In this document: positions 1,028-40,681 of the stretch, one piece after another
Layout: each line of letters begins with the position of its first letter
How positions within the stretch are numbered: position 1 is the stretch's first letter
Assembly: GCA_025359425.1 (NCBI GenBank)
Contig: JANYGC010000005.1
Location: forward strand, 1-64,000
Source: Sphingomonadaceae bacterium
GTDB taxonomy: Bacteria > Pseudomonadota > Alphaproteobacteria > Sphingomonadales > Sphingomonadaceae
DNA: 64,000 bases
Direction of reading: 5' to 3'
Notes under the pieces: model-generated
Databases searched by the model: none
Told to the model about the DNA's origin: nothing
Seen by the model: the letters and a program-made list of their open reading frames with translations, nothing else
Translations under genes and position numbers: made by a program

Positions 1028-1144
1028 GTTTCTCCCCCAAGAACCAGCGACCCGGCGGCAATGAGCCACGACCGGCACAAGTTGGCAACAGCCATTCGAC
1101 CAGCTGCACACAAGCGCGATCATGCCGCTGATTTCGGTAGTGGG

Positions 1145-1390
1145 TCAGTTTGAATCTTTGCGCGCAAACATGTGGTAGGCGCCAAAAATGGTCACCGCTA
1201 TGAAGGTTGCTAACAGGTAGCGCGCCTCAACCCAATCATGCAGCACAGACCAAAACTCATATGCGCTGCTTGGTGAGTAACTGCTGTAATAAGGTTCAGT
1301 AGCCTCGATTATACTTTTGCCAGAAGTCCAAAGTATTAAGCTGGCTCCTAAGCCTATGAATGTGAGTTTACGTGGCCAATTCTTTATCAT
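1145..1390 (-). CDS. Small membrane protein, transposon passenger
   Basis: 81-aa ORF with two hydrophobic segments; start overlaps transposase stop (ATGA, 1387-1390); stop codon lies inside the left TIR. Confidence 0.55.
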   Translation of the reverse strand: MIKNWPRKLTFIGLGASLILWTSGKSIIEATEPYYSSYSPSSAYEFWSVLHDWVEARYLLATFIAVTIFGAYHMFARKDSN

Positions 1391-2259
1391 ACGTCGCTCC
1401 TCTTTTTGTAAGGTCCGCGCTTTTTAGCAGGGGCTTCCACCGCTTCGACTAGCTTCACTATATCGCCGATCTCCCACAGCGTATCGCTCACGCCAGCAGC
1501 CATCGCGGGCGACATGCGGGTTTTGCCGTGGATGCGGACGAAGTTGTAATACATCATGTGGAGCGCCACGGCGTAGGCGTGGTTCTCAACCTTCTTTGAG
1601 AAGCCATTCGTGAGGCGCGTGAAGCGGCGCATGTGCATCCGCATTGTGAGGTTGTTCCGCTCGACGTAGCTGGTCGAAATGAAGCCAATGTCGGGGCGTC
1701 CTCGAACGCGGCGTTTTGCGGCCCCGATGCATTCCGGGGGGCTGTAACGGCCAGTCGGCGTTTGCCCGTAGGCCTTAATCAGCTGCGCGAAGTCGATATC
1801 GTCGCCGAATGCATCCTCAACTGCGCCGATGTAGGCGTTAAGGCCGTCAGCGGTAAGCTGGACGCGGTTGGCGAGACGGTCGGCCAGGTCCTGAATAAAC
1901 TCCACGGCATATTCAGCATCGCGACCACCAACGAGGTAGGAAACGATCATCTTGCTATCGGCGTCGATAGCGGTCCACGTCCACGTATCGCCAGCGCCTT
2001 CCGGGGCGGCTTTTGCCAACGCGACGTTCTTTTGCTTGGCGTAGGTGAAGCTCCAGATTTCATCGACCTCGATACGCTTCGCTTTCACATCGCGCACGTT
2101 AGCATCGTGATAGGCCATACAAGCCCGTCCGGTGTCTGCAAGCAAACGAACCACGGTGTTCTTGCCCACGCCGAGGATGCGAGTGATCGCACGGATGCTG
2201 CTTCCCTCGCACAGCATGTGGATGACTTGGGCGCGTTGTGTGGGGGAGAGCCTGTTCAT
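1387..2259 (-). CDS. IS1-like family DDE transposase
   Basis: MNRLSPTQRAQVIHMLCEGSSIRAITRILGVGKNTVVRLL (HTH), then VDEIWSFTYAKQKN..., TWTAIDADSKMIVSYLVGGRDAEYA..., and FVRIHGKTRMSPAMAAGV. Confidence 0.9.
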   Translation of the reverse strand: MNRLSPTQRAQVIHMLCEGSSIRAITRILGVGKNTVVRLLADTGRACMAYHDANVRDVKAKRIEVDEIWSFTYAKQKNVALAKAAPEGAGDTWTWTAIDADSKMIVSYLVGGRDAEYAVEFIQDLADRLANRVQLTADGLNAYIGAVEDAFGDDIDFAQLIKAYGQTPTGRYSPPECIGAAKRRVRGRPDIGFISTSYVERNNLTMRMHMRRFTRLTNGFSKKVENHAYAVALHMMYYNFVRIHGKTRMSPAMAAGVSDTLWEIGDIVKLVEAVEAPAKKRGPYKKRSDV

Positions 2260-2382
2260 GTATCCGTGATAGACCTGTATCCATGTCCAGTCAAGCAAAA
2301 AAGTTCGTTTGAACTTCCGCTAATGTTGACAAAGGTCCGTTTGAGCCTATTTAGGATGGGCGGCGAGAGACCTTAGTTCGTG

Positions 2383-2454
2383 AGCGGACGACGGGATTCG
2401 AACCCGCAATGGCTGACTGGGAAGAAAGCTGTTTTGCCGTTAAACTACGTCCGC
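2383..2454 (-). tRNA. tRNA-Gly-like gene with abnormal anticodon arm, transposon passenger
   Basis: Reverse complement GCGGACGTAGTTTAACGGCAAAACAGCTTTCTTCCCAGTCAGCCATTGCGGGTTCGAATCCCGTCGTCCGCT. Acceptor stem 7/7 paired, D-arm GTTT/AAAC, T-arm GCGGG-TTCGAAT-CCCGT. Anticodon arm pairs only GCT/AGC. Confidence 0.65.
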
Positions 2455-2509
2455 GTGGTGAGATGGTGAGGGCCGGGGTGAGGTTACCGCCTCTTCCCGG
2501 CCCCCGTTT

Positions 2510-3001
2510 CTACTTTAGCATCTCGTCGATAAGCGCCTCCCTCTTAGGTTGAAGAAACCAGTCAACGCCTTCTCGGCGGACCTTACCCGCTTTGCTAAGC
2601 CGGTAGAGGCTCATACCAGGCGTTTTCTCATGGACAGCACGCCCTATGCGCTCTTGAATGATCCGGCGAAAGTCAGCGGAGCGGAGTGGCTTCGGGTAGG
2701 TCTCGCTAAGCGCTTCAAGGATTATATCGGCAGCACTAGGCGAACTCCCCTGAACCGCAGGGCTGATCGGCGCTTCTTCCGTGGGGGTGAGTTCGAATGG
2801 CATCAGATCAATGCCAAGCGTGCGAGCTGCGGCCTTAATCTCGGCGGCCCGTTCTGACGCATGGTCGCGCCGCTCTTCGAGGATGCGCGCCTGATCGTCG
2901 CAATCCTTTATCGTCTGGACGCATGTATCAAGCTGGCCGCGCAATTCGTCCGCTGCGGCCTGCTTCCAGTCGTTGTGCGATATCGTAACCGTCACGGCCA
3001 T
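2510..3001 (-). CDS. Hypothetical protein, coiled-coil plus winged-helix-like C-terminus (transposon passenger)
   Basis: 163-aa ORF inside the TIR-bounded element; coiled-coil-like N-terminus and ADIILEALSETYPKPLRSADFRRIIQERIG...LYRLSKAGKVRREGVDWFL. Confidence 0.6.
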   Translation of the reverse strand: MAVTVTISHNDWKQAAADELRGQLDTCVQTIKDCDDQARILEERRDHASERAAEIKAAARTLGIDLMPFELTPTEEAPISPAVQGSSPSAADIILEALSETYPKPLRSADFRRIIQERIGRAVHEKTPGMSLYRLSKAGKVRREGVDWFLQPKREALIDEMLK

Positions 3002-3064
3002 CCTCCCGAAATCAACTATCGAGAAGGAGATAGGGCCAAACGTTACAGGTTACAACCCCTACGA

Positions 3065-3310
3065 CTACCCTGCCGATTGATTCTTTTGCCAGCGCTTTTG
3101 AGCCGCTGCCGTAGCGATGGCGCTACGCTCCTCGCTCGACAGCTTGTTTGCCCGCGCCACCCCGCCCTTTAACCCACCCTTGCGCCCAAGAGATACAGCG
3201 GCGGGGTCTTTCCCATCATCAACTGTGTCGGGAACCGCCCCGCTGGCAATATCTGTTATCAGCTTAGCGAGTTGGTTCGGGTCGCGCGGGCGGGGGGTGC
3301 GTTTTTCCAT
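3065..3310 (-). CDS. Small basic protein with GRKGGLKGG motif (transposon passenger)
   Basis: 81-aa ORF MEKRTPRPRDPNQLAKLITDIASG...GRKGGLKGGVARANKLSSEERSAIATAAAQKRWQ; inside the element. Confidence 0.6.
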   Translation of the reverse strand: MEKRTPRPRDPNQLAKLITDIASGAVPDTVDDGKDPAAVSLGRKGGLKGGVARANKLSSEERSAIATAAAQKRWQKNQSAG

Positions 3311-3413
3311 GTAGCCGCTATAGCGCAGATCGCAGCGAAGCGGCAGACCTCACGCGCAGCCTTTTCAAACTGACCCACTACCCTGATTTCGCCGCAGGTG
3401 ACGAGCGCGACAA

Positions 3414-40262: not shown

Positions 40263-40681
40263 CGCGCAAAGTACCTTTCCGTCCGCAGAGGCAGACCTGT
40301 GAAAGGCAACGCTTGGGCCAAAACCTGACCGGGAGGTTGCTCGTTCCCGGTAAGCCCGCATTATCGCGCGGCAGCGGTGAGCGCAATCCTTGGCCTTGGC
40401 CTTGGCCGCCCTTGCCCTTGCTGGCCGCCGCAAGCGGCTTTCCTACACGCCGGGCCTCTGGCAGGCTGCCCGGACGGCACCGATCGGTACCCACTCTGCT
40501 CTGCCGTTGCAGCGTGCGCGATCGGATGCCGCTGCGAATGCGTTTTGGTGTGACCTTCGTGTGACCTTTCGATCCGGCCGCACCATTTCCTTGCCCGCTC
40601 TGTCTTATCTTGATAATACAGCTTGCAGAACCGGCCAGGCATCCCACATTGGCCAGGCAACCAAGGATACGGACCCGATCG

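Follow-up and report, generated by a model that had tools for sequence, protein, structure and literature searches.

Why should an insertion sequence carry a tRNA gene whose body is intact and whose anticodon arm is not that of an ordinary tRNA? The question arises at 2383–2454 on the minus strand of a 64,000-nt stretch of Sphingomonadaceae bacterium DNA (contig JANYGC010000005.1, positions 1 to 64,000; hereafter the window), where a tRNA-Gly-type gene sits between the passenger genes and the transposase gene of an IS1-family element. An earlier reading of the letters alone, here the original prediction, had offered a tRNA mimic or a decaying pseudo-tRNA. We favour, with a probability of about one half, a chargeable tRNA with perturbed decoding, maintained as a passenger and acting in trans as a decoy or a miscoder.

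The tRNA gene and its anticodon arm

The gene is real and transposon-borne, as the original prediction held. ARAGORN calls it tRNA-??? (cc) at 2382–2454 (−), the Rfam tRNA model (RF00005) recognizes a cloverleaf at 47.6 bits against a gathering score of 29 (the window's tRNA-Trp scores 68.6), and the surrounding element is bounded by perfect 19-bp inverted repeats and an 8-bp duplication, CTGATTTC. The gene reads GCGGACG UA GUUU AACGGCA AAAC A GCUUUCUUCCCAGUCAGC CAUU GCGGG UUCGAAU CCCGU CGUCCGC U, and its acceptor, D and T arms, described earlier as intact, have standard pairs at 7/7, 4/4 and 5/5 positions. Its 3' end is GCT followed by CAC, with no encoded CCA; most sampled chromosomal tRNA genes encode CCA.

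The anticodon arm had been described as GCT/AGC paired around a 12-nt loop. The outer stem stands, but the loop is better redrawn as a 2x2 mismatch (UU/UC), a closing C-G pair (U-A in the copy from Tsuneonella) and a 6-nt loop. Because this 18-nt arm, with two mismatches and a 6-nt loop, differs from the ordinary 5-bp stem and 7-nt loop, we class the gene as tRNA-type and not as an ordinary tRNA. Nor is it needed for decoding, since the host genome already has ordinary tRNA-Gly genes with CCC (two genes), UCC (one) and GCC anticodons. Recent capture of a host tRNA-Gly was rejected, as the host genes match the 3' part only. A pattern search for the same Gly tRNA in viral contigs found none, and on plasmids the only match was a Paenibacillus stretch at 78%. 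A guide RNA, in which the anticodon arm would pair with the target site, was also rejected: arms compared by eye with the duplications of five elements gave no match.

Recurrence and selection at one position

At least nine other elements have a tRNA-like gene at the same site: those of Tsuneonella rigui KCTC 42620 (four identical copies of a tRNA-bearing relative), Parvibaculum (locus L052), Rhodobiaceae (L058), Caulobacter (L073), Rhodospirillales (L077), G526 (L122) and two viral contigs (L265 and L273), and L299, a distant IS1-type element (38% identity between its transposase and the query used). All ten genes lie 80–150 nt upstream of the transposase and on its strand. The calls are not due to chance, since 4,000 sequences made by order-1 Markov shuffling of the upstream regions of 80 relatives gave no tRNA call with ARAGORN. 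The bearers are scattered over the transposase tree, and only some of the ten copies are independent of one another, the two Gly copies being close kin and three Parvibaculum-type copies likewise.

When the ten are aligned, 160/160 cells of the 16 pairs in the acceptor, D and T stems hold standard pairs, and 12 of the 16 show changes on both sides; for the anticodon stem, taken in its ordinary register, the share of standard cells is 70%. Random decay in every arm of the other copies, named in the original prediction as the outcome that would speak against a mimic, was thus not seen (10/10 keep every body pair), and the compensatory changes it proposed to look for are often present in the body, the deviation lying in the anticodon arm. 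Two close pairs give the same picture. Window and Tsuneonella agree at 46/48 body positions (96%) and at 16/23 in the arm and variable region, and their flanks at 76/137 and 73/121 aligned columns (about 58%). Between L052 and L058, the body agrees at 47/50, the arm region at 15/25 and the flanks at 103/126 and 99/110 (about 82–90%); the anticodon itself differs, CCC in the former and GCU in the latter. These identities indicate a strongly constrained body and a faster-changing arm.

Faster change does not amount to loss in the Gly pair. The 18-nt arms of window and Tsuneonella show six differences, which together replace both partners in three of the four pairs (G-C to C-G, U-A to G-U and C-G to U-A); neither the U.C and U.U mismatches nor the UUCCCA loop has changed. 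In simulations that used the register of the window's own fold, placing six changes at random produced three compensated pairs about twice in 100,000 trials (P about 2e-5). Three double compensatory changes around an unchanged loop argue that the atypical CCC-bearing hairpin is maintained in this pair. Judged by sequence comparison, the window's tRNA gene is under selection and is not decaying.

The bodies are of several types. The nearest ordinary tRNA is a tRNA-Gly for the Tsuneonella copy, and for the window's too, after the Tsuneonella copy itself; it is a tRNA-Arg for L052, L058, L073 (after other element copies), L077 and L122, and the L299 body looks Gln/Glu-like by eye. The anticodons of the Arg-like copies are CCC, CCC, GCU, GCU, ACU and CGU, plus a CGU of uncertain register, and zero read Arg codons. 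Glycyl-tRNA synthetase (GlyRS) identity features are U73, G1-C72, C2-G71, G3-C70, C35 and C36, and the sequences of the window and Tsuneonella copies appear to hold all of them. Arginyl-tRNA synthetase (ArgRS) uses A20 and C35, which we read in L052, L058, L073, L265 and L273. L073 joins an Arg-like body with A20, C35, A73 and an encoded CCA to a full stem and a GCU anticodon; L273 is similar with CCC, and both have 7-nt loops on full or nearly full stems. Five copies (L052, L058, L073, L273 and L299) have C55 in place of U55 in the T loop, which removes the usual pseudouridine site; among 96 distinct tRNA sequences sampled, C55 was confined to element copies.

A mimic with a non-decoding arm had been proposed. 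The mimic part holds, in that the gene is maintained, but 'non-decoding' goes too far: most copies keep U33 and A37, L073 and L273 have 7-nt loops on full or near-full stems, and CCC is conserved in the Gly pair. On these features altered decoding seems as plausible as absent decoding.

Four further relatives (L061, L157, L108 and L114) carry a well-formed tRNA-Ser-type gene with a UUA anticodon that runs in the opposite direction to the transposase, and a protein of 262–266 amino acids without known family lies between the two. The best full-length phage matches are 81–84% identical and mostly annotated as tRNA-Ser. These tRNAs should read UAA and are thus putative ochre suppressors; no gene that needs UAA read-through was found among the element genes. 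That they read an in-frame TAA before the transposase was rejected, because the conserved TAA belongs to the promoter and because stop codons of every kind precede the transposase in many relatives beyond those that bear the UUA tRNA.

The element and its relatives

On the minus strand the element runs inverted repeat, orfA, orfB, GC-rich hairpin, tRNA, transposase, a hydrophobic frame and inverted repeat (Table 1). The whole element is single-copy in its genome, where a 69%-identical transposase region occurs elsewhere. The transposase scores 36.3 bits with Pfam PF03400 (cutoff 24.1), which makes it an IS1-type DDE enzyme, and 70.3 bits with NCBIfam transpos_IS1, under the cutoff of 100, so we regard it as a divergent family member. 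Short inverted repeats and an 8–9 bp target duplication, as expected of the family, are present. The InsA-InsB −1 frameshift, found in classical IS1 only, is absent, the transposase being one continuous frame; as single-frame groups are known within IS1, we keep the family assignment and not the classical subgroup.

Translation of the transposase likely starts with MNRLS at 2259, since many relatives align only from that methionine. A TTGAC motif lies at about the same distance from the start in most relatives, and a consensus promoter scan did not pick up the window's candidate, TTGACT-17-TATCAC. Directly before this TTGAC box many relatives have a terminal-repeat-like sequence, AAACTGACC (window equivalent 2266–2310, minus strand), as if the transposase could repress its own expression.

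The structure model of orfB is of moderate confidence. The protein matched no family in Pfam, NCBIfam or PADLOC, gave only weak scores with PHROGs and had no match on plasmids. It occurs only in tRNA-bearing elements (window, Tsuneonella, L052, L058 and L273); its absence from the others shows that the tRNA does not require it as a partner. A hairpin comparable to that at 2470–2504 precedes other elements' tRNAs, as judged by eye.

Transposase searches recovered 80 loci from species genomes, 30 more from a class-wide genome sample, and further sets. Most relatives end in inverted repeats like or identical to those of the window element. Identical 8/9-bp flanks occur in 124 of 158 two-ended elements (records partly redundant). 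Nearly all relatives have orfA, and their remaining cargo differs from element to element. In some, a HigB-like toxin gene stands before the transposase and points away from it; in plasmid records, where element ends are unmapped, Shedu, RES-Xre or ABC-3C genes lie near it. Closely similar Parvibaculum-type transposases are accompanied by a tRNA of the window type (L052 and L058), a UUA tRNA (L061) or a HigB-like toxin gene (L055), and therefore cargo has been swapped.

Six relatives (L007, L021, L031, L048, L051 and L062) share a different non-coding stretch, with an ACCTCTCGC-like motif and a strong hairpin, 80–200 nt upstream of the transposase, where other relatives have the tRNA. Family insertions also lie unusually often near host or phage tRNA genes: within 200 bp there are 0.23 tRNA genes per kb, against 0.009 further out, a rate that rests on few independent insertions and is not corrected for intergenic bias. 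Element ends lie near tRNA genes at L307, L004/L136, L383, L414, L011 and L071, within 0–8 bp at L383 and L414. Elsewhere in the window, at 40306–40350 (−), the Rfam chrB-b cis-regulatory RNA model scores 37.7 bits, barely over its gathering score of 36.5.

Table 1. Features of the element in the window, and the UUA tRNAs of four relatives (positions prefixed by locus)
Feature	Position	Strand	Basis
Complete passenger-carrying IS1-family insertion sequence, 2,247 bp	1136..3382		Perfect inverted repeats and flanking 8-bp duplication
Target-site duplication CTGATTTC, left copy, 8 bp	1128..1135		Sequence
Target-site duplication CTGATTTC, right copy, 8 bp	3383..3390		Sequence
Terminal inverted repeat, transposase side, GGTAGTGGGTCAGTTTGAA	1136..1154	+	Perfect 19-bp match to other end
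Terminal inverted repeat, passenger side	3364..3382	−	Perfect 19-bp match to other end
Open frame of 81 amino acids after transposase, hydrophobic, possible further passenger	1145..1390	−	No family matched
IS1-family transposase; reading frame open from 2298	1387..2259	−	DDE_Tnp_IS1 above cutoff
Likely transposase promoter TTGACT-17-TATCAC, 6 nt ahead of start codon	2266..2294	−	TTGAC motif spacing in relatives
tRNA-Gly-type gene, atypical anticodon arm, U73, no encoded CCA	2383..2454	−	ARAGORN and Rfam
Atypical anticodon arm GCUUUCUUCCCAGUCAGC, made of 3 bp, a UU/UC mismatch, 1 bp and a 6-nt loop	2412..2429	−	Pairs compensated in Tsuneonella copy
Anticodon loop UUCCCA, holding CCC anticodon	2418..2423	−	Identical in Tsuneonella copy
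GC-rich hairpin directly upstream of tRNA	2470..2504	−	Read from sequence
orfB, passenger of 163 amino acids; predicted long helix and winged helix	2510..3001	−	Structure model, mean pLDDT (predicted local distance difference test) 69.5
orfA, accessory protein of 81 amino acids	3065..3310	−	Common to nearly whole insertion sequence family
tRNA-Ser-type, UUA	L061:2742-2830	−	
tRNA-Ser-type, UUA	L108:3472-3558	+	
tRNA-Ser-type, UUA	L114:343-440	−	
tRNA-Ser-type, UUA	L157:3424-3512	+	

Possible roles and known systems

How might such a tRNA serve its element? It is probably transcribed together with orfA and orfB; the transcript would be trimmed like a tRNA, receive CCA from the host enzyme and be charged with glycine. 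The distorted anticodon arm would then keep it from reading GGG as the host tRNA-Gly(CCC) does, and it could act in trans either as a miscoding, suppressor-type tRNA or as a decoy for tRNA-handling or tRNA-cutting enzymes. The element itself would benefit, in a slot where sister elements hold toxin-antitoxin or defence genes. We take the tRNA to be a maintained passenger because the body is fully paired in every copy, most of its pairs have changed on both sides, the window arm is compensated, and the gene recurs at one position on unrelated branches of the transposase tree and in the distant L299 element. Several points weigh against this reading. The copies do not agree in body isotype, anticodon or neighbouring genes, which leaves a single shared function unproven; a consensus scan near the tRNA matched no sigma-70 promoter or terminator; the mostly absent encoded CCA and the C55 of five copies could mean lower activity; and a role in cis would likewise preserve the tRNA body. 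Only tentatively would we extend the reading to the whole group, with IS1-type transposons having repeatedly recruited tRNAs and reshaped their anticodon arms into trans-acting miscoders or decoys that serve the element as toxin-antitoxin and defence modules serve its sisters; if true, these tRNAs would form a mobile class of genes for persistence or conflict.

That role in cis is the main rival, though an unlikely one: the tRNA would be a processing insulator, at which RNase P and 3' tRNA nucleases cut the passenger transcript, shielding the transposase gene from incoming transcripts and leaving it to be driven by its own promoter alone. The place of the tRNA, in every case 80–150 nt upstream of the transposase and on its strand, suits it, as do the GC hairpins, the direction of the window passengers toward the transposase and the confinement of full conservation to the parts that those nucleases read. 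Processing has no need, however, of the compensatory upkeep of the window/Tsuneonella arm; U33 and A37 are retained in most loops, L073, L122 and L299 already have an oppositely directed gene upstream, and the tRNA-Ser(UUA) passengers are on the other strand. A narrower form of the trans-acting passenger is that all copies are strict informational suppressors, miscoding like classical suppressors and tRNA-ProX (below): Gly copies would shift frame at GGG, Arg-like copies would insert Arg at Ser or Gly codons, and UUA copies Ser at UAA. This appears to fit best for L073 and L273, with their full or near-full stems under GCU and CCC, and for the UUA copies, which have a Ser-type body and full or nearly full anticodon stems; the 6-nt loop of the Gly arm also accords with it. 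Since several anticodon stems hold mismatches, and no element gene was found that needs recoding, we doubt it in so strict a form. Very improbable is a functionless pseudogene, decaying or captured. The atypical arm, the absent CCA, the low Rfam score (47.6 against 68.6 for tRNA-Trp) and the frequent nearness of the family to tRNA genes, which offers opportunities for capture, are what it would predict, but the paired and covarying bodies (160/160, 12 pairs), the excess of body identity over flank identity (96% against about 58%), the compensatory arm changes and the recurrence at one position all argue against it, and with it against the decaying pseudo-tRNA of the original prediction.

Among known systems, transporter-type IS1-family insertion sequences share the DDE_Tnp_IS1 transposase, inverted repeats, 8-bp duplication and variable passengers; the window family differs in its unframeshifted single transposase frame, its conserved orfA and its tRNA passengers. 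Frameshift-suppressor tRNA-Gly of the sufD type has an 8-nt anticodon loop and resembles the window tRNA as a tRNA-Gly(CCC) of altered loop geometry, whereas here a 6-nt loop tops a 6-position stem with two mismatches, and the gene is natural and mobile. The Bacillus cereus pseudo-tRNA (tRNA-Other) is likewise an extra tRNA-like gene, outside normal decoding and with a possible regulatory role; it differs in sequence and to our knowledge is not transposon-borne. We know of no report of insertion sequences with tRNA genes as a recurrent passenger, and the open-access literature that we searched, where absence is not proof, contained no report of recurrent, selected, anticodon-altered tRNAs as insertion sequence cargo. 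Annotation pipelines list genes of this kind among odd or ordinary tRNAs.

A further parallel is tRNA-ProX, the mistranslating tRNAs of Streptomyces, as outlined in PMC10365949 on Vargas-Rodriguez 2021 and Schuntermann 2023. Going by that outline, both are dispensable extra tRNAs with an anticodon mismatched to the body (here in the Arg-like copies) and plausibly miscode. The element tRNAs differ in having Gly-, Arg- or Gln/Glu-like bodies and irregular stems, in being borne by insertion sequences and in having no dedicated synthetase adjacent; the window's has a Gly body and no synthetase in its element, where tRNA-ProX has a tRNA-Pro body beside a ProRSx gene. Mistranslating tRNAs and passenger-carrying insertion sequences are already known, and the window gene is best read as a new passenger class for the latter. 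A preserved tRNA body with a remodelled codon-reading arm offers a direct approach to the interference that mobile elements may exert on host translation or on tRNA-targeting toxins, and the recurrence of altered tRNAs at one site in related elements suggests that tampering with tRNA helps these elements in a mode undescribed so far.
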